Assembly (NCBI RefSeq): GCF_025972045.1 | Contig: NZ_JAPDHX010000001.1 | Span: forward strand, 910,787-974,786 | Direction of reading: 5' to 3' | Length of the DNA stretch: 64,000 nucleotides | Source of the DNA: Micropruina sonneratiae | GTDB taxonomy: Bacteria > Actinomycetota > Actinomycetes > Propionibacteriales > Propionibacteriaceae | Shown: positions 1 to 8,287 of the stretch, in pieces | Layout: every line of letters begins with the position of its first letter | How positions within the stretch are numbered: the first letter of the stretch is position 1 | Program-made: the position numbers and the translations under genes | The notes under the pieces: model-generated | What the model was told of the DNA's origin: nothing | Seen by the model: the letters and a program-made list of their open reading frames with translations, nothing else | Databases searched by the model: none

Positions 1-129
1 GGCAGCTATGGAACCCGAGAACAGTCGGCGTTGCTGAGAACGGACGCCCCGGACGCGACAGAAGGGTCGTGTTCCGGTGGTGGGGCTGAACGACATTCGG
101 CCGCGGGGGCGGGCGACTACCCTGAGCGG

Positions 130-732
130 GTGCCTTCCGAGAACAGCAGACCCCGCCGTCCGGCCTTCCGTGACCCGGCCATGCTCGAGCTGATGGGCGT
201 GGGCAGCGACCCGATCGCCCAGCTGCACGCCGCCCACGAGACCGCCGCTGTCCTGCTGCGCACCGGCCGGGCGGCCGACGATCCGGCGGTGACCAGGCGG
301 TTGGTCGACCTGGTGGACGAGATCGGGCTGTCGACGTTGGCCGATCTGTGGTCGTCGCGCCCGCCGCGCTCGCTGCCCGGTGCGTTGTGGCGGCTGTACT
401 TCCTGCGCGAGTGGATGCGCACCGACGCCCCCGGCGTGGCGCGCAGCTACGCCGCCGGCGTCCGGTTCACCGAACCCAACCACGTGGTGGCGGGCATCGA
501 TCCGCCCCGGCCCGACGACGTCCGCCGGGTCGCCGACGACATTCTGCGCGGCGCCTTTACCGGCGACTTCGCCGTCGCCCTCGAGCGGGCCGCGGCTTTC
601 TGCCTGGTGGCCTCCGCCGGCGGTGCCGACCTGGAGGGCTCCGAATGGCTGCTGCGGTCGCAGCGGCTGCAGCAGATGGCGTCCGACCTGACCGCGTGCG
701 CGGGGCTGTGGCGGGCCGGCACCCTGCAGTGA
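130..732 (+). CDS. hypothetical protein
   Basis: I do not recognise this 200-residue protein. It is soluble and looks mainly helical, with conserved-looking stretches LWRLYFLREWM and DLTACAGLWRAG. The frame is open from base 31, but I place the start at GTG 130 because TACCCT at 118-123 lies six bases before it, the same bases (ACTACCCTGAGCGGGTG) that precede truB at 8305. An ATG at 181 is the other candidate and would drop 17 residues. There are no membrane segments or metal motifs. It is followed on the opposite strand by the broken arsM gene, so its context gives no function. Confidence 0.6.
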   Translation: MPSENSRPRRPAFRDPAMLELMGVGSDPIAQLHAAHETAAVLLRTGRAADDPAVTRRLVDLVDEIGLSTLADLWSSRPPRSLPGALWRLYFLREWMRTDAPGVARSYAAGVRFTEPNHVVAGIDPPRPDDVRRVADDILRGAFTGDFAVALERAAAFCLVASAGGADLEGSEWLLRSQRLQQMASDLTACAGLWRAGTLQ

Positions 733-780
733 ATCAGGCGGAGGGTCGTCCCGGACCCGTCGCGGTGCGGGCCGGCCGGA

Positions 781-1501
781 TCATCGTGGGGCTTGGCCGA
801 GCGGCTTGACGGCCCTGATGAAGGCGCTGGCCAGCGCGCCATCGAGGGCGTCCACGGCGTCCGCCACCGTACGTCCCGCCGGCAGTTCGTCGCGCAGCGG
901 TTCGGCCAGTTCGGCTAGCTCGTCGCGGTCGTAGCGCCGCGTGATCTGCACGTCGGGTGCCCCGAAGCCGGCCGAGACGAGCTTGTCGCGGTAGTCGGTG
1001 ACGGTGAGCGCCGACGACGCACCCCGTCCACAACCCCGCCACCCGCACCCATTGCGGTGCCAGTTCGCGCAGCAGGACGACGTCGGCCGCGGCGAACCGG
1101 CCGTCGGGCCGCAGTACCCGGAACGCCTCGGCGAGCACGGCGTCCTTGTCGGTGGACACGGCCAGGCTGAGCAATTCGTCGGTGGCGTCGACCCCATAGG
1201 CGATGCCGCCCGGAGCGACGCGACGCGCCGACAGCAGGACGTCCAGCCCGCCGCCCGAACCGAGGTCGAGCACGTCGTCGCCGGGGTTGAGGTCGATCAG
1301 GGCGGTCGGGTTGCCGCAGCCGAGCGAGGCTGCGGCGGCGCCGGCCAGCGGCGCTTCGACGGCTGTGTACAGGTCGCGGGTGATCCGGTCGCAGCTGCCG
1401 CCGCAGCACGCGCCGTCGGTGCTGTCGGCGAGTCCCACCAGGCGCTGTGCGGACGTCGCGAACCTCTCGTGAACGGCCTGGGGGAGGTCGGCTGCGTCCA
1501 T
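781..1501 (-). pseudogene. arsM: arsenite methyltransferase, frameshifted and internally deleted
   Basis: The N-terminal part reads like ArsM, the SAM-dependent enzyme that methylates As(III): CCGGSC near residue 33, LGCGNPTALIDL, then the SAM motif LDLGSGGGLDVLLSARRV. Two lesions are visible. After DELLSLA the protein jumps to STDKDAVLAEAFRVLRP, skipping roughly 40 residues that ArsM proteins normally carry there. Near 1008-1012 the frame changes: GLWTGCV stays in frame 1, but TVTDYRDKLVSAGFG and the rest, to the stop at 781, lie in another frame. The start ATG 1501 has an AGGAGA ribosome site. It is divergent from arsR. I infer a dead gene; a sequencing error could explain the frameshift but not the missing block. 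Confidence 0.72.
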
Positions 1502-1511
1502 GGCGTCTCCT

Positions 1512-1531
1512 GATTCGATCAGTCTGGAATC
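1512..1531. promoter_or_regulatory. possible ArsR operator
   Basis: A short inverted repeat, GATTC-N10-GAATC, lies between the divergent arsM and arsR starts. ArsR-family repressors bind such dyads, and the position suits control of arsM. The arms are only five bases long, so this is weak. Confidence 0.25.
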
Positions 1532-1590
1532 AAGAGGTTGGCACGTAATTCGGCCAGGTCGGCCTCGGCGTCATCGGTCACGATAGAGGC

Positions 1591-1901
1591 ATGACGATCG
1601 AGGTGGACGCCTGCTGTCCCGGGCAGGGATCGACCGGTGAACCGGCCCCCGACGACCTGGCCGCCGGCTTCAAGGCGCTCGGCGATCCGGTGCGGGTGCG
1701 GCTGTACGCGCTGATCGCCGCACGCGACGAGATCTGTGTGTGCGAGCTCACGCCGCAGTTCGAGCAGTCCACGTCATCACCCATCACCTCAAGGTGTTGC
1801 GCGAGGCAGGACTGGGTCGCGCCCAGCGCCGCGGGACGTGGGTGTACCACGCCTCCGTGCCGGACGCCGTGGCGCGGCTGGGAGCGTTCCTCACCGCCTG
1901 A
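1591..1901 (+). pseudogene. arsR: ArsR-family arsenic-responsive repressor, frameshifted
   Basis: The first 60 codons encode an ArsR/SmtB winged-helix repressor: FKALGDPVRVRLYALIAA followed by EICVCELTP, with candidate As(III) ligands C8, C9, C49 and C51 (an N-terminal Cys pair plus a Cys in helix 3 or 4 is known in some actinobacterial ArsRs). At about 1772 one base appears to be missing. The recognition helix and wing continue in another frame, VITHHLKVLREAGLG, then RRGTWVYHASVPDAVARLGAF, to TGA at 1899-1901. As written the gene gives a chimeric protein with no DNA-binding wing. It is divergent from the equally broken arsM, so the whole module looks inactive unless these are sequence errors. 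Confidence 0.72.
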
Positions 1902-2511
1902 TCGGCTGAGCGTCCGCAGGGCGCCGCTTCGATCGCGCAACGCTCGAGCCGGGCCGGATTTGGGTTCTGGGTGGGACGGCCTATAGTTGGCGGTCGGTGT
2001 CGGGCTGAGGTAGCCCCGGGCTCCAACACTTGCCGCTACGAGCGGCCACGCGCCGAGAGGCGCTCCCAGCCCGGCACCGATCTTCTTCTCTCCCATGCCC
2101 TCGGTGAGGTCCCGGCATTCGCCGGGATGACGGATGTGGGCGGCCTTCGGTGAGGTCCCGGCGTTCGCCGGGATGACGGGGTGCGGTGGGTTCTCGGTGG
2201 GGTCCCGGCGTTCGCCGGGATGACGGGGTGCGGTGCGGGCCCTTCGGTGAGAATCCCCGGCGTCCGAACACGACTGAGCCCGGCCGTCCGAAGACAGCCG
2301 GGCCGGGAAGAGGAATCAGTCGATCGTGCGTTCAGACGCGCCTCCCTTCCGCACCACCACGCTCGCCGGCACCAAACGCTCGCCCCGGCTGGACGGCGAT
2401 CGTGGTGGAGACCCGGTTGTTCATGTCCGCTACTCAACCGGCCGTTTCCGTGGAGGCTCTGGCTGCGTCCTATGGCCTGCCTGTGAGTGCGGCCCGCTAC
2501 CCTTGGACGCC
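1902..2511. other. 610-base gap without a convincing gene
   Basis: I see no supported gene between arsR and ylxR. Several overlapping open frames here run through low-complexity codons and a palindrome array. The gap holds the repeat array at 2106-2226, a fourth degenerate unit near 2244-2270, and the -10 box for ylxR at 2498-2503. Genes rimP and nusA, which commonly precede ylxR, are not here. Confidence 0.6.
2106..2226. repeat. three tandem copies of a GGTCCCGGCGTTCGCCGGGA palindrome
   Basis: Three near-identical units, at 2106-2133, 2152-2179 and 2199-2226, recur every 46-47 bases. Each contains a CCCGGCGTTCGCCGGG stem-loop followed by ATGACGG. Related units occur in other gaps at 30421-30506, 37682-37750 and 61560-61587. 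This is a REP-like intergenic palindrome family, not a CRISPR: the units are self-complementary and the spacers resemble each other. Confidence 0.8.
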
Positions 2512-2763
2512 GTGACGACCCCCCAACGGATGTGCGCCGGCTGCCGCGAGCGGGCCGCCAAGGACGCCCTGGTCCGGCTGGTCTGGGACGGCGAAACCTC
2601 GGTCGTCGTCGACCTCCACCAGCGGTTGCCGGGGCGGGGCGTCTACCTGCACCCGGCCTGCGCCGCCCGGGCACTGAAATCGCGGGCGATCGGACGCGGC
2701 CTGCGCCGCAACCTCGACGGCAAGGAGGTGGGGAATGTCCTCGCCACGCTCCCGGTTGGGTGA
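2512..2763 (+). CDS. ylxR: YlxR family RNA-binding protein (DUF448)
   Basis: An 83-residue protein with the YlxR hallmark RMCAGCR near its start, followed by LVRLVWD, GRGVYLHPACAARAL and a basic C-terminus (GRGLRRNL). YlxR proteins are small nucleoid/RNA-binding proteins usually encoded between nusA and infB. I choose GTG 2512 because TACCCT at 2498-2503 stands eight bases upstream, as in other leaderless genes of this window; ATG 2530 is the alternative. It is followed by the infB leader. The usual upstream partner nusA is absent. Confidence 0.85.
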   Translation: MTTPQRMCAGCRERAAKDALVRLVWDGETSVVVDLHQRLPGRGVYLHPACAARALKSRAIGRGLRRNLDGKEVGNVLATLPVG

Positions 2764-2780
2764 TTCGAGGGCGACGGCGA

Positions 2781-2786
2781 TAGACT
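2781..2786 (+). promoter_or_regulatory. candidate -10 box for infB
   Basis: TAGACT follows the ylxR stop and precedes about 130 bases of leader. A weak TTGGGT lies 19 bases upstream. A transcript from here would carry the small hairpin at about 2800-2820 and the three mini-ORFs at 2845-2887. Confidence 0.35.
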
Positions 2787-2844
2787 TGCAGGTGCGCCTC
2801 CGCCGATCCGTGGCGGATCCCAACCAGAAAGTGGGCTAACGCTC

Positions 2845-2887
2845 ATGACCACTCGATGAGTACCTCGAAATGAGCAACAACAACTAG
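2845..2887 (+). other. three overlapping mini-ORFs in the infB leader
   Basis: Three tiny reading frames follow each other with ATGA overlaps. ATG 2845 encodes MTTR and stops at 2857-2859. ATG 2856 encodes MSTSK and stops at 2871-2873. ATG 2870 encodes MSNNN and ends at TAG 2885-2887. They end 35 bases before the infB GTG. Each stop overlaps the next start, so a ribosome could terminate and restart three times before reaching the SD of infB. This looks like a translational control leader, but that role is inference. Confidence 0.6.
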
Positions 2888-2922
2888 CTGGCCTGCGCAC
2901 CACGCGGGCCTGAAGGAGAGTA

Positions 2923-5871
2923 GTGGCCAAGGTCCGCGTCTACGAGCTCGCCAAGGAGCTCGGACTCGAAAGCAAAGATCTTCTGAAGAAGCTGAACGAC
3001 ATGGGCGAGTTCGTCCGGTCGGCTTCTTCCACCATCGAGCCGCCCGTCGTCCGGCGGCTCAACGAACGCATGTCGGCCGAGAAGGCCCCGAGCGCGCCGT
3101 CGTCCGGCGCCAAGCCCCAGGCCAACCGTCCCGGCGGCTCGGTCCCGCGTCCCGCTCCGGCTCAGCAGTCCGCGCCGCAGGCGTCCGCGACCACCGCCGG
3201 CGGGCAGCAGAGCACCCAGGCCCGGCCGTCCGGCCCGCGCCCGGGCGCCGGCCAGTCCGGCCAGGCGAGCCAGGCGAGCCAGCCGGCACCGAGCGTCCAG
3301 CAGCGGCCGTCGGCGACGCCGCAGCCGCGTCCGAGCGCGCCGCAGGCCCGCTCCGACGCAGGCCAGGCGCGCCCCGCCGAGCAGCAGCGCCCCGCGGCCC
3401 AGTCGCGTCCGGCCTCCGGCGAAGGGTCGGCAGCCACGGCGGCCCGTCCGTCGTCCGGCACCCCGGGGCCGCGTCCGTCGGCCCCGCGGCCGATGCCGCG
3501 TCCGGGTGGCACCGGCGGCCTGCCCGGCCAGGGCGGCAACCGCCGGCCCGGCGCACCGCGTCCGGGCAACAACCCGTTCTCGTCCAGCCAGGGCATGGGC
3601 GTGCGGCGCGCCCGGCCCGAGGGCGGCACGGCCCCGGCCGGCCGCACGGACGCCCGTGGCGGCTCCGCGCGTCCCGGACAGCCCGGCGGTGCCCGGCCCG
3701 GGCCCCGCTCCGGCGTGCCCGGCATGCCGCGTCCCAATCCCGCGATGATGCCCCGCCAGGCCAACCCGTCCCTGGGCAGCACCCAGGGCCGCACCGGTGG
3801 CGGCGGCGGACGCGGTGGCTTCGGCGGCGGCGGACGCCCCGGCGGCGGTCCCGCGAACCGGGGTGGCTTCGGTGGTCCCGGACGTCCCGCGGGTGGGCCT
3901 CCCACCGGTGGCGGCGGTCGCGGCCGTGGTGGCCGCGGCGGGTCGGGCACCCAGGGTGCGTTCGGTCGCGCCGGCGGGCCGGCCAAGCGCGGACGCAAGA
4001 GCAAGAAGCAGCGCAGGCAGGAATTCGACCAGATGGAGGCCCCGACGATCGGTGGCGTCCGGATCCGGTCCGGTGACGGCTCGACGGTGCGGCTGCGCCG
4101 TGGCGCGTCGTTGACCGACCTGGCCGAGAAGATCGGTGTCGATCCGGCGTCGCTGGTGCAGGTGCTGTTCAACCTGGGCGAGATGGTCAACGCCACCCAG
4201 TCGGTGGCCGACGACACGCTGCAGGTGCTGGGCGCCGAGCTCAACTACTCCATCGAGGTCGTCTCGCCCGAGGACGAGGACCGCGAACTGCTGGAGAGCT
4301 TCGACATCGAGTTCGGTGAGGACGAAGGCGGCGAGGCCGACCTGGCCCCGCGTCCGCCGGCCGTCACCGTGATGGGCCATGTCGACCACGGCAAGACCAA
4401 GCTGCTGGACGCCATCCGGCACACCAACGTGGTCGCCGGCGAGGCCGGTGGCATCACCCAGGCCATCGGCGCCTACCAGGTGACCACCGAGGTCGACGGC
4501 AACGAGCGCAAGATCACCTTCATCGACACCCCGGGTCACGAGGCGTTCACCGCCATGCGTGCCCGCGGCGCCAAGTCGACCGACATCGCCGTGCTGGTGG
4601 TGGCGGCCGACGACGGCGTGATGCCGCAGACGATCGAGGCGCTCAACCACGCCAAGGCGGCCGAGGTGCCGATCGTGGTCGCGGTGAACAAGGTCGACAA
4701 GGAGACCGCCGACCCGGCCAAGGTGCGCGGCCAGCTCACCGAGTACGGCCTGGTGCCCGAGGAGTACGGCGGCGACACCATGTTCGTCGACGTCTCGGCC
4801 ACCACCAGGCAGGGCCTGGACGAGCTGCTCGAGGCTATCGTGCTCACCGCGGACGCCTCACTCGACCTGCGCGCCAACCCGGACATGCCCGCGCAGGGCG
4901 TGGCCATCGAGGCGCACCTGGACAAGGGCCGCGGCCCGGTCGCCACGGTGCTGGTGCACCGCGGCACGCTGCACACCGGCGATTCGATTGTCGCCGGCTC
5001 GGCGCACGGTCGCGTCCGCGCCATGATCAACGACCAGGGCGAACAGGTCGACGAGGCGCCGCCGTCCATGCCGGTGCAGGTGCTCGGCTTGACCTCGGTG
5101 CCAGGCGCGGGCGACAACTTCCTGGTCGTCGAGGACGACCGGATGGCCCGGCAGATCGCCGACAAGCGCGAGGCCCGGAAGCGGGCGGCGATGCTGGCCA
5201 AGTCGACCCGGCGCAAGACCCTCGACCAGCTGTTCGAGCAGCTCGAGAAGGGCGAGACGCAGGAGCTCAAGCTCATCCTCAAGGGCGATTCGGCCGGTTC
5301 GGTCGAGGCGCTCGAGGACGCGCTGGCCAACATCGAGATCTCCGACGAGGTCAGCCTGCGGGTCATCGACCGCGGTGTCGGTGCGATCACCGAGACGAAC
5401 GTGTCGCTGGCCGAGGCGTCCGACGCGGTGATCATCGGCTTCAACGTGCGCCCCCAGGGCAAGGCCACCCAGCTGGCGGATTCGGCCGGTGTCGACATCC
5501 GCTACTACTCGGTGATCTACGCCGCGATCGACGACGTCGAGTCGGCGCTGAAGGGCATGCTCAAGCCGATCTTCGAAGAGAAGGTCACCGGCCAGGCCGA
5601 GATCCGGGAGATCTTCCGGTCGTCCAAGTTCGGCACCATCGCGGGCTGTATGGTCATCGACGGTTCCGTGCGGCGCAACTCGAAGGCCCGTCTGATCCGC
5701 GACGGAGTGGTGGTGACCGACACCTCGATCGCCTCCCTGCGGCGCGAGAAGGACGACGTCACGGAGGTCCGCGAGGGCTACGAGTGCGGCATGACGCTGA
5801 CCAACTACTCCGACATCAAGGTCGACGACGTGATCGAGACCTACGAGATGGTGGAGAAGCCGCGCGACTGA
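2923..5871 (+). CDS. infB: translation initiation factor IF-2
   Basis: A 982-residue IF-2, the GTPase that delivers initiator tRNA to the 30S subunit. It begins [21 protein letters not shown] (IF2-N domain). Residues 50-345 form a long Pro/Ala/Gly/Arg-rich linker with RGG-like blocks, then a second IF2-N domain lies around 390-440. The G domain carries G1 GHVDHGKT at 485-492, G3 DTPGH at 535-539 and G4 NKVD at 589-592. Domains II, III and C2 follow and end in [14 protein letters not shown] 2923 is preceded by AAGGAGAG. The length is typical of actinobacteria. The leader holds three overlapping mini-ORFs, and a strong hairpin follows the stop. Confidence 0.98.
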
Positions 5872-5880
5872 CGCGTCAGG

Positions 5881-5909
5881 GGCCCCGGTGGATGTCCTCC
5901 ACCGGGGCC
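5881..5909 (+). terminator. hairpin after infB
   Basis: A perfect 12-bp stem (GGCCCCGGTGGA paired with its complement) around a 5-base loop starts nine bases after the infB stop. There is no long T tract, so it may only attenuate read-through into rbfA, which begins 52 bases on. Confidence 0.65.
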
Positions 5910-5961
5910 TTGGCGCACTAGGGTGGGGGCGTTTCGTGACCCGCCGAGAAGGAGGCCCGTG

Positions 5962-6390
5962 ATGGGTAACCCGCGTTACATCAAGGTCGCCGAGCAGATC
6001 AAGGTGATCGTGGCGGAGCTGCTCGAGCGGAGGATCAAGGATCCCCGGCTCGGGTTCGTGACGCTCACCGACGTCCGGCTCACCGGCGACGGCCGGGAGG
6101 CGACCGTCTTCTACACCGTGATGGGCGACGAGCAGGCCCGCACCGACAGCGCCGCGGCGCTCGAGTCGGCGCGGGGGCTGATCCGCTCGCAGGTGGGCAA
6201 GCAACTCGGGATGAAGTTCACCCCGACCATCGCGTTCGTGCTCGACTCGGTCCCCGAATCGGCCGCCGCGATCGAGGACGTGCTGGCCCGGGCTCGCGCC
6301 GCCGACGAGGCGGTGGCCGCCCAGGCCGCCGAGGCGTCCTATGCCGGCGAGGCGGATCCGTACCGCAAGCCGGACGACCCGGAGGCCTGA
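5962..6390 (+). CDS. rbfA: 30S ribosome-binding factor RbfA
   Basis: A 142-residue RbfA, a KH-fold protein that matures the 5' end of 16S rRNA and is needed at low temperature. Family motifs are [20 protein letters not shown] at the N-terminus, [18 protein letters not shown], then [18 protein letters not shown] and the C-terminal IEDVLARA. The start is ATG 5962, with AAGGAGG eight bases upstream; the frame is open further back, but the family begins here. It sits behind infB as usual, but truB does not follow directly: about 1.9 kb of other genes intervene. Confidence 0.95.
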
Positions 6391-6414
6391 GCGCCCCGAT
6401 CGGCTCCGTCAAAC

Positions 6415-6446
6415 ACCAGCGCCCACGAGCTATCGTGGGCGCTGGT
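6415..6446 (+). terminator. intrinsic-type hairpin after rbfA
   Basis: A perfect 14-bp stem (6415-6428 with 6433-6446) and a 4-base loop, 25 bases after the rbfA stop. It closes the ylxR-infB-rbfA unit before the next promoter at 6475. Confidence 0.7.
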
Positions 6447-6474
6447 TCGCTTGTGGGGGCTTGCATTTCGCGCC

Positions 6475-6490
6475 TAGAATGCTAGCATTC
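6475..6490 (+). promoter_or_regulatory. -10 box overlapping a perfect 14-base palindrome
   Basis: TAGAAT (6475-6480) overlaps the perfect palindrome GAATGCTAGCATTC (6477-6490), four bases before ATG 6495. TTGTGG at 6451-6456 could be the -35 (18-base spacer). Ribbon-helix-helix proteins bind palindromes of this size at their own promoters, so autorepression by the next gene is likely. Confidence 0.55.
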
Positions 6491-6494
6491 AAGT

Positions 6495-6650
6495 ATGCGA
6501 GCAAATGAGGACGAGGACCCCAAGGTCCAGTTCAACGTGTACCTGCCGAAGTCGCTGGTCACGGCGTTGAAGCACCGGGCCATCGACGAGGGGCTGAGCA
6601 TGTCGGCGTTCGTCGAGCGGCTCGCCCGTGACTACCTCAAGGAGCAGTGA
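6495..6650 (+). CDS. small ribbon-helix-helix (CopG-like) DNA-binding protein
   Basis: A 51-residue protein that reads as a classic ribbon-helix-helix fold: the strand KVQFNVYLPKSLVTALKHRA, then the helix pair AIDEGLSMSAFVERLARDYLKEQ. Such dimers bind DNA through the beta strand and are common as antitoxins or autoregulators. Its TGA overlaps the ATG of the downstream VOC gene (TGATG), which implies translational coupling. A perfect palindrome covers its promoter. No toxin-like partner is present: the neighbour is a two-domain VOC protein, so I favour a specific regulator over a toxin-antitoxin pair. Confidence 0.8.
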   Translation: MRANEDEDPKVQFNVYLPKSLVTALKHRAIDEGLSMSAFVERLARDYLKEQ

Positions 6651-7387
6651 TGATCATCAGTAGGCCCGTGCAGTACACCAGCCGGGTGGGTGAGTACCGC
6701 GCGTTGTTGCGGGCGCTCGGCCTGGTCGAGTTGCCGACCGAGGCCGAAACCGGTGGGTCCGATGTCTGGACGGTGTTCCAGGCCGGGTCGGGACGGGTGG
6801 CGCTGCACGCCGTGGACGCCGGCGACCCGCTCGACGGCGGCGCGGCGCTGGGCTTCGAGACCGACGAGCTGGACGCCGTGGCCGGCCGCCTCGCCCAGGC
6901 GTCCGGGGTGGAGGTGCGCCGCTTCGCGCGCTCGGACGGCAAGGCGATCGAGGCGGTGGCGGCCGACGGTCAACACCTGTTCCTGCTGGCCCCGACCCCC
7001 GGCCAGGTCACGGCCGAGGTGGCCGAACTGGCCGCCCTGGCGCTGTGGGTGACCCCCGACGTCGCGGGCGCGGCTTACGTGCTGAACGGGCTCGGGTTGC
7101 GCGGCACGGTCGCCAGCGACGGTGGGGGCTGGTACCAGGCGTCCGCCGACGGTGGCGGGCTGGCCGCCGCGCACGACGGGACCGAGGCCTCGGCGCAACT
7201 GTCGTTCGAGTACGACGGCGACGTGCAGGCGCTGCAGGGCCGGCTCGAGGCCCATGGCATCGGCTGCGCACTGGTGGACGAGTCCTACGGACGCACGCTG
7301 CTGGTGGACCGCCCCGACGGCGGCGACCCGCTGTGGGTGAACGAGCGGCAGACCGATCTATACGGCTACGTGGCCCTGAACGCCTGA
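6650..7387 (+). CDS. two-domain VOC (glyoxalase/bleomycin-resistance fold) protein
   Basis: A 245-residue protein made of two VOC-like halves. In the first (about 1-115), SRVGEYRALLRALGLVE is the typical opening and GGAALGFETDELDAVAGRL the mid-domain strand and helix. The second (about 120-245) has LWVTPDVAGAAYVLNGLGLR and ends in DPLWVNERQTDLYGYV. VOC proteins act as glyoxalases, dioxygenases or drug-binding proteins; the usual His/Glu metal ligands are not obvious, so a binding role is as likely as catalysis. ATG 6650 overlaps the stop of the ribbon-helix-helix gene; GTG 6647 is possible. No substrate can be assigned. Confidence 0.75.
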   Translation: MIISRPVQYTSRVGEYRALLRALGLVELPTEAETGGSDVWTVFQAGSGRVALHAVDAGDPLDGGAALGFETDELDAVAGRLAQASGVEVRRFARSDGKAIEAVAADGQHLFLLAPTPGQVTAEVAELAALALWVTPDVAGAAYVLNGLGLRGTVASDGGGWYQASADGGGLAAAHDGTEASAQLSFEYDGDVQALQGRLEAHGIGCALVDESYGRTLLVDRPDGGDPLWVNERQTDLYGYVALNA

Positions 7388-7406
7388 CAGCGCGGGGCGG
7401 GGTGGG

Positions 7407-7643
7407 TCAGCGGGACGCCGCTGCCGCGCCCACCCCGAGCGCGACGTCGGCCAGGGCGTCGGCGTGGGCCTGGGCCGAGTCGATCAGCGGCAGCGGGCTC
7501 TCCTCGGGGCCGACCAGTAGGCCGATCTCGGTGCAGGCCAGCACCACCGCCTGAGCGGCCAGGTCGTCGATGGCGCGAAGGTAGTCGCGGCGGGAGGCGT
7601 CCGTCACCACGCCCTGGGTGAGTTCGTCGAAGACCTCGAACGC
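7407..7643 (-). pseudogene. aspartate/glutamate racemase, C-terminal remnant
   Basis: Reading leftwards from 7643, the frame gives FEVFDELTQGVVTDASRR, then AVVLACTEIGLLVGPEES and PLIDSAQAHADALA. This is the last third of the Asp/Glu racemase (YgeA) family, including the second catalytic Cys in the ACTEIG motif. The N-terminal two thirds with the first catalytic Cys are missing. Upstream of FEV the frame runs at once into the promoter region of the divergent acetyltransferase. I infer a 3' gene fragment left after deletion or recombination. Confidence 0.65.
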
Positions 7644-7714
7644 CCCCTACCGGTAGTGATCCGTCCGGAATGGTGCCTAGGGTGAGCGACGTGAGCACGA
7701 GACGGGAGGACGGC

Positions 7715-8287
7715 ATGACCCAGTACCGCGTGGAGGAGTTGACCGCGGCGACCTGGCCGGCGTTCGAGGCGCTGGTGCGCAAGCACAACGGCATTTTCGG
7801 CGGGTGCTGGTGCCTGTGGTTCCACGAGCAGCCCGGGACGGGTACCCAGGACGGCAACTGCGCGGCCAAGAAGGACCTCGTCGAGGACGGCGTCGCGCAC
7901 CACGCCCTGGTGATGGAGGGTGACGCCGCGGTCGGCTGGTGCGAGTACGGCAGCCCCGCCGAGCTGCCGAACATCTATCACCACAAGGAGTACGACGCCA
8001 GCGGCATCGAGCCTACGAGGTACCGGATCACCTGCTTCTTCGTGGACCGCGACCACCGGCGACACGGCGTCGCCGAACTGGCGCTGGGCGGGGCACTGGA
8101 TGCCATCGCCCGGGCCGGCGGCGGCAGCGTCGAAGGGTTCCCACGGCACGATCTGGACGGCCGCAAGCTGTCGGCGTCCTTCCTGTTCAACGGCACCTTG
8201 CACATGTTCGAGCGGGCCGGTTTCAGTCGGGTCCGCGACCTGGGCACGTTGCGTACCATCGTCCGGCGTGAGGTGGCCCCCGCCTGA
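7715..8287 (+). CDS. GNAT family N-acetyltransferase
   Basis: A 190-residue protein with a GNAT-like layout: beta-rich N-terminus (QYRVEELTAATWPAFEALV), a Cys/Trp-rich block FGGCWCLWFHEQ, the core strand RITCFFVDRDHRRHGVAELAL with the acetyl-CoA loop R-x-H-G, and C-terminal HMFERAGFSRVR. The substrate is unknown. FGGCWCLWFH belongs to a recognisable subgroup of small GNATs. ATG 7715 has GGGAGGA seven bases upstream. It abuts the racemase fragment on the other strand and precedes truB by 17 bases, but truB has its own -10 box. Confidence 0.8.
   Translation: MTQYRVEELTAATWPAFEALVRKHNGIFGGCWCLWFHEQPGTGTQDGNCAAKKDLVEDGVAHHALVMEGDAAVGWCEYGSPAELPNIYHHKEYDASGIEPTRYRITCFFVDRDHRRHGVAELALGGALDAIARAGGGSVEGFPRHDLDGRKLSASFLFNGTLHMFERAGFSRVRDLGTLRTIVRREVAPA

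Follow-up and report, generated by a model that had tools for sequence, protein, structure and literature searches.

Overlapping mini-ORFs and a predicted re-pairing hairpin in the infB leader of actinomycetes: a candidate translational attenuator

Leader-peptide attenuators of the ermC and trp type use the position of a ribosome in a leader ORF to select between exclusive hairpins, and in E. coli the autoregulation of IF3 acts at the infC start codon, which is non-standard. Other described systems make use of overlapping stop and start codons. AUGA and UGAUG gene overlaps (PMC6728339, PMC12548453) couple translation through the same junctions as those considered here, where the downstream ORFs lack a Shine-Dalgarno (SD) sequence and should depend on coupling; in M. 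tuberculosis an AUGA-linked uORF, uPPE2, controls the downstream gene PPE2 (PMC11260477); and the MIRU elements of mycobacteria (PMC12548453) likewise couple a short ORF to a gene by a -4 nt overlap. In the ilvB1 attenuator of M. tuberculosis (PMC13236596), as in the scheme proposed below, the position of the leader-ORF ribosome would choose between two exclusive hairpins. In nearly all actinomycetes sampled, infB, the gene for IF2, is preceded by about three overlapping mini-ORFs and a predicted re-pairing hairpin, which together look like an undescribed control element, by which the cell may monitor how well it can initiate protein synthesis. A search of a literature collection returned no account of this infB leader.

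The mini-ORF chain and its conservation

In the window (the whole 64,000-nt stretch of Micropruina sonneratiae DNA that was analysed), infB lies between ylxR upstream and rbfA downstream (Pfam). All leader features described below are on the forward strand, as are ylxR (2512..2763; Pfam YlxR, E 2.5e-18 on 2515-2760, with the start codon read from the sequence) and infB, which runs from a GTG start over 2923..5871 (Pfam IF2_N, GTP_EFTU and IF-2), leaving a leader of 159 nt between the two genes. GTG was found at every infB start read in the class with ATG, GTG and TTG all allowed; outside the class the starts are a mixture of ATG, GTG and TTG. The slot upstream of ylxR, often occupied by nusA, holds methyltransferase-like and ArsR-type-like ORFs here: at 734-1501 (-) and 1591-1986 (+) a methyltransferase-like gene (Pfam Methyltransf_31) is apparently split over two frames, beside an ORF with a changed frame that resembles an ArsR-type regulator by eye and has no Pfam match. 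Several GGTCCCGGCGTTCGCCGGGATGACGG-like repeat copies occupy 2100-2240, and similar GGGATGACG repeats occur elsewhere in the genome. Rfam gave no match above the gathering score in positions 1-8000 of the window.

A sigma-70 scan of 2500-3000 found no full canonical promoter. A possible -10 box, TAGACT (2781..2786), with a TAGACT/TACACT-like box at a similar place in about nine of the closest relatives by eye, gives a weak hint to a transcript start upstream of the mini-ORF chain. A 5' hairpin is predicted by folding directly before the first SD sequence (2799..2817), and similar inverted repeats are visible by eye in relatives.

The chain itself reads ATGACCACTCG, ATGAGTACCTCGAA and ATGAGCAACAACAACTAG in succession. 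The first-pass annotation had placed MTTR, MSTSK and MSNNN at 2845-2887, chained by ATGA and ending 35 nt before the infB GTG, and this description proved exact: uORF1 (MTTR, 2845..2859) shares an ATGA with uORF2 (MSTSK, 2856..2873), which shares another with uORF3 (MSNNN, 2870..2887), so that two in-frame overlaps link three ORFs, the last of which ends in TAG and is separated from the GTG at 2923 by 2888-2922. Folds also pair the start of uORF1 with that of uORF3 (GCTCAT/ATGAGC), a feature confined to the sequence of the window's family. Strings of the form ATGA n4-22 ATGA n4-22 ATGA occur 51 times in the 3.5 Mb genome, and among the distinct strings read only 4 have two successive in-frame links, namely the infB leader, two tandem copies of dispersed repeats and the purB start; other large genomes, read by eye, also hold a few in-frame double links by chance. 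Since double links arise by chance elsewhere, the argument is one of conservation and not of uniqueness.

Leaders were considered across the window's family, the class and 80 named genome contigs, gathered by homology to IF2 and not by the leader itself. After identical sequences were dropped, 197 distinct infB leaders remained, which share phylogeny. The script that assembled them took GTG starts only, earlier passes with ATG and TTG allowed having given only GTG, and 13 loci had no start that it could parse. Counting ATGA, GTGA, TGATG and TAATG junctions, at least three linked mini-ORFs are present in 192/197 leaders against 15/3940 dinucleotide shuffles, which bears out the earlier claim that the chain is unlikely by chance; the antisense strands yield 1/197. 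In other classes of the phylum, the chain was found at 0/16 candidate infB starts. Chained mini-ORFs as a general habit of leaders were rejected: purB leaders of the window's family hold at least three linked mini-ORFs in 0/25 cases, with at most one mini-ORF within 130 nt, and the purB link in the window's genus enters the gene itself. There (G000:C12:131542-131908; L286, L288) ATGA junctions connect the two upstream mini-ORFs, MTR and MNL, and connect this pair with the purB ATG; MKA and MNP are arranged likewise in another genome of the genus, while in many of the family's other genera an SD sequence takes their place. This looks like a genus-level change at the purB start from SD-led to relay initiation.

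The proposal that relatives would keep the overlaps whilst the peptide residues vary was strongly upheld across about 36 families, and such a pattern implies a chain that acts through termination and restart and not through its peptides. Most leaders have three units and some, including those of Kribbella and Cellulomonas, have four; two near-identical leaders (L053, L084) have one mini-ORF only. Successive ATGA motifs are spaced by 3n-1, which preserves frame, in 352/378 instances, so mini-ORF lengths vary by whole codons. The 438 junctions in the 197 leaders comprise 406 ATGA, 15 GTGA, 14 TGATG and 3 TAATG, with one junction being GTGA in Mycobacteriaceae-like genomes, a label given on the basis of protein and genome size. 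In two families the first ATG has become ACG (GTGACTCTCACGAGCGTTCGATGA; ATGGCGACGAGCACGCGATGA) and is replaced by an in-frame start upstream (MTLTSVR, MATSTR). The overlap bases are nearly fixed, and the unforced codon positions vary by 0.7-1.8 bits. An arrest-peptide leader was rejected, there being no conserved peptide and the unforced codon positions being variable. What appears to have been kept through evolution is the act of stopping and restarting, not the peptide.

These observations also bear on the alternative that the CGATGAGTAC-like repeated units form a protein- or RNA-binding motif in which reading frames are incidental. Several families do conserve the nucleotide repeat strongly. 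Yet lengths change without loss of frame, one junction type is exchanged for another, starts are relocated, and AT-rich leaders have the same chain with a different sequence, all of which argues against this explanation; we regard it as very improbable. A reading as a binding motif only was rejected, since it is the frames, the types of junction and the relocated starts that persist. The chain is, from its sequence record, very probably a functional translated relay, and we infer actual translation of the mini-ORFs from their evolution.

Shine-Dalgarno placement and competing hairpins

Duplex energies were calculated with the 16S tail GGATCACCTCCTTTCT, confirmed in the organism's own genome. 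In the window, the extended SD of uORF1, AGAAAGTGGG (2826..2835), which carries a recurrent mismatch to the 16S tail, gives -9.4 kcal/mol, and the infB SD, GAAGGAG (2912..2918), gives -8.3 kcal/mol; uORF2 and uORF3 lack an SD. Median energies across the class are -9.4 for the first mini-ORF (192 leaders), -3.8 for the second, -2.2 for the third and -8.5 kcal/mol for infB, so that SD sequences appear to belong to the first mini-ORF and to infB only. The uORF1 SD (AGAAAGTGGG, or GGAAGCGGGT in other families) falls short of the perfect 16S-tail complement, and in many families it does so at one and the same position, which gives the impression that the imperfection is maintained.

One alternative is simple ribosome delivery: ribosomes loaded through the relay would scan onwards from the last stop until they reach the infB GTG, so that the mini-ORFs would be activators of infB and the hairpin would just shorten the path. 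In most leaders the last stop is 35-50 nt upstream of the GTG, near the post-termination reach of >40 nt (cited in PMC5972666), and AUGA coupling has been tested with a positive outcome for uPPE2-PPE2 of M. tuberculosis (PMC11260477). Nevertheless, infB has a good SD of its own and a single mini-ORF would be enough for delivery, and we consider this explanation rather unlikely.

Between the last stop and infB, folding predicts a hairpin (A; 2890..2910, -15.9 kcal/mol, z -2.3) in which GGCCTGCG (2890-2897) pairs with CGCGGGCC (2903-2910) and the infB SD is left free. Across 190 leaders the region from last stop to infB folds with a mean of -17.8 kcal/mol against -13.0 kcal/mol when shuffled, and in 98% of leaders it folds better than the mean of its own shuffles. 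The median distance from the last stop to the start of hairpin A is 2 nt, and that from its end to the GTG is 13 nt. Pair counts lend it modest support, with 23 double-change cells against 13.5 shuffled in an alignment where some rows were misaligned by MAFFT. One family (f12) apparently lacks hairpin A and keeps the chain. In several leaders (e.g. L031, L039, L060, L183) the loop of A contains CCTGTC, which is complementary to GACAGG in the SD stretch of infB and might form a pseudoknot or a third pairing; in such lineages the SD could be masked in the A state and the sign of control reversed.

Folding of a longer piece predicts a rival hairpin (B; 2902..2939), in which 2902-2911 pairs with infB codons 3-6 (2930-2939) and encloses the infB SD and GTG. 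The two predicted hairpins share the arm 2903-2910 and are mutually exclusive. When the 5' arm of A is omitted, at least 5 pairs between tail and coding sequence form in 92% of leaders, with B the more stable state in 82%. Pairing of the 3' arm with the infB codons of its own leader averages -16.6 kcal/mol, compared with -12.6 for synonymous versions, -14.4 for the codons of other leaders and -10.8 for a shuffled arm. The codons of this stretch also show synonymous constraint: codon 4 is GTC or GTT in 149/149 KVR leaders and never GTG, which supplies 33% of valines later in infB, and codon 5 is CGG in 59% of KVR-type leaders against 16% later in infB. At the third position of codon 5, the base can pair with its opposite number in the arm in 115/129 leaders, compared with 69.4 by permutation (P<1/5000), and in 56/63 non-redundant leaders against 37.6; in the window's own family the match is weaker, holding in about half of those listed. 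Ribosome delivery would leave this covariation between arm and codons unexplained. A tree-aware test on the 63 leaders with enough coding sequence found 4 branches with joint change, all of which end paired, where 1.8 were expected (P=0.08); this outcome is suggestive only, and we regard hairpin B as supported but not proven.

Two further features qualify the B state. The infB SD lies unpaired in its loop, so repression would need the flanking stem; the start region is unpaired to 0.36 in B versus 0.47, and the SD itself is not less open in B. Hairpin B is not formed in the leaders of one family (f32), and in Mycobacteriaceae-like leaders the SD is instead faced by a CCTC in the 3' arm. We consider a switch between A and B somewhat more likely than not.

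A putative relay-driven attenuator

We tentatively propose, with slightly less than even confidence, that successive rounds of termination and re-initiation in the infB leader form a relay, and that this relay drives a translational attenuator of infB. Ribosomes would enter at the uORF1 SD and reach uORF2 and uORF3, which lack an SD, by termination and re-initiation at the AUGA overlaps, so that the chance of arrival at the last stop would be the product of several re-initiation steps. A ribosome on the last stop would cover the 5' arm of hairpin A, which starts about 2 nt beyond. With the 5' arm free, hairpin A would form first and the infB start region would be open; with it covered, the 3' arm would pair with infB codons 3-6 to form B, trapping the infB SD and GTG. 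Since re-initiation depends on IF2, infB would be shut when the factor is plentiful and open when it is scarce. The first-pass annotation had suggested that the chain could adjust infB translation, and that suggestion is supported indirectly, through SD placement, hairpin A and the predicted competing hairpin B, which it had not seen.

We infer the switching, the sign of control and IF2 as the signal, and the confidence attached to these parts differs. IF2 or initiator-tRNA sensing is plausible since IF2 promotes re-initiation in E. coli, where overproduction of IF2 increased re-initiation, about 2.5-fold when the initiator tRNA was a mutant and slightly when it was normal, and where re-initiation appeared to require IF2 more than de novo initiation did (PMC2268962). 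The same study found that IF3 lowers re-initiation (PMC2268962), and the sensed signal could alternatively be IF3, release factors or recycling. Negative feedback of IF2 on infB is doubtful, if possible; for the more complete scheme, in which the count of successive re-initiations would respond steeply, as a power law, to the supply of IF2 (or initiator tRNA) and so measure it, and in which two competing hairpins would set infB translation across the class, the chances are, in our view, much the same.

A transcriptional role for the leader is also conceivable, translation of the mini-ORFs keeping a ribosome behind RNA polymerase and so preventing Rho-dependent termination before infB. Translated uORFs do interplay with Rho in M. 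tuberculosis leaders (PMC12810186, PMC11260477), but one ORF of equal length would suffice for such protection, the conserved feature being the repeated stop and start, and we judge this role improbable. No intrinsic-terminator-like site was found at 2500-3000, by a scan that does not address Rho. The multiplicity of stop-start steps is left unexplained both by simple delivery and by protection from Rho.

If the attenuator proposed here is correct, nearly all actinomycetes, streptomycetes and mycobacteria included, would share a conserved control of IF2 synthesis in cis, and how the IF2 level is set in these organisms would become directly testable. The infB leader might then also be used as a natural reporter, both of how efficiently ribosomes re-initiate and of compounds that inhibit initiation.

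Comparison with described systems

The AUGA and UGAUG couplings cited above join pairs of real genes, whereas the infB leader chains 3-4 ORFs of about 4-7 codons and is conserved across a class. MIRUs are mobile repeats found at many genes; the infB leader, in contrast, is fixed at one gene and has several chained ORFs. Similarly, uPPE2 overlaps PPE2 itself and comes under B12 riboswitch control, whilst the last mini-ORF of the window ends 35 nt short of its gene, next to a hairpin. As with IF3 and infC in E. coli, initiation itself would be the step at which an initiation factor regulates the gene that encodes it, but infC has no mini-ORF relay. Finally, unlike the leader-peptide attenuators, the infB leader has neither stalling codons nor an arrest peptide, and the variable would instead be the completion of serial re-initiation. 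Measuring by serial re-initiation would put the AUGA overlap to a new use.
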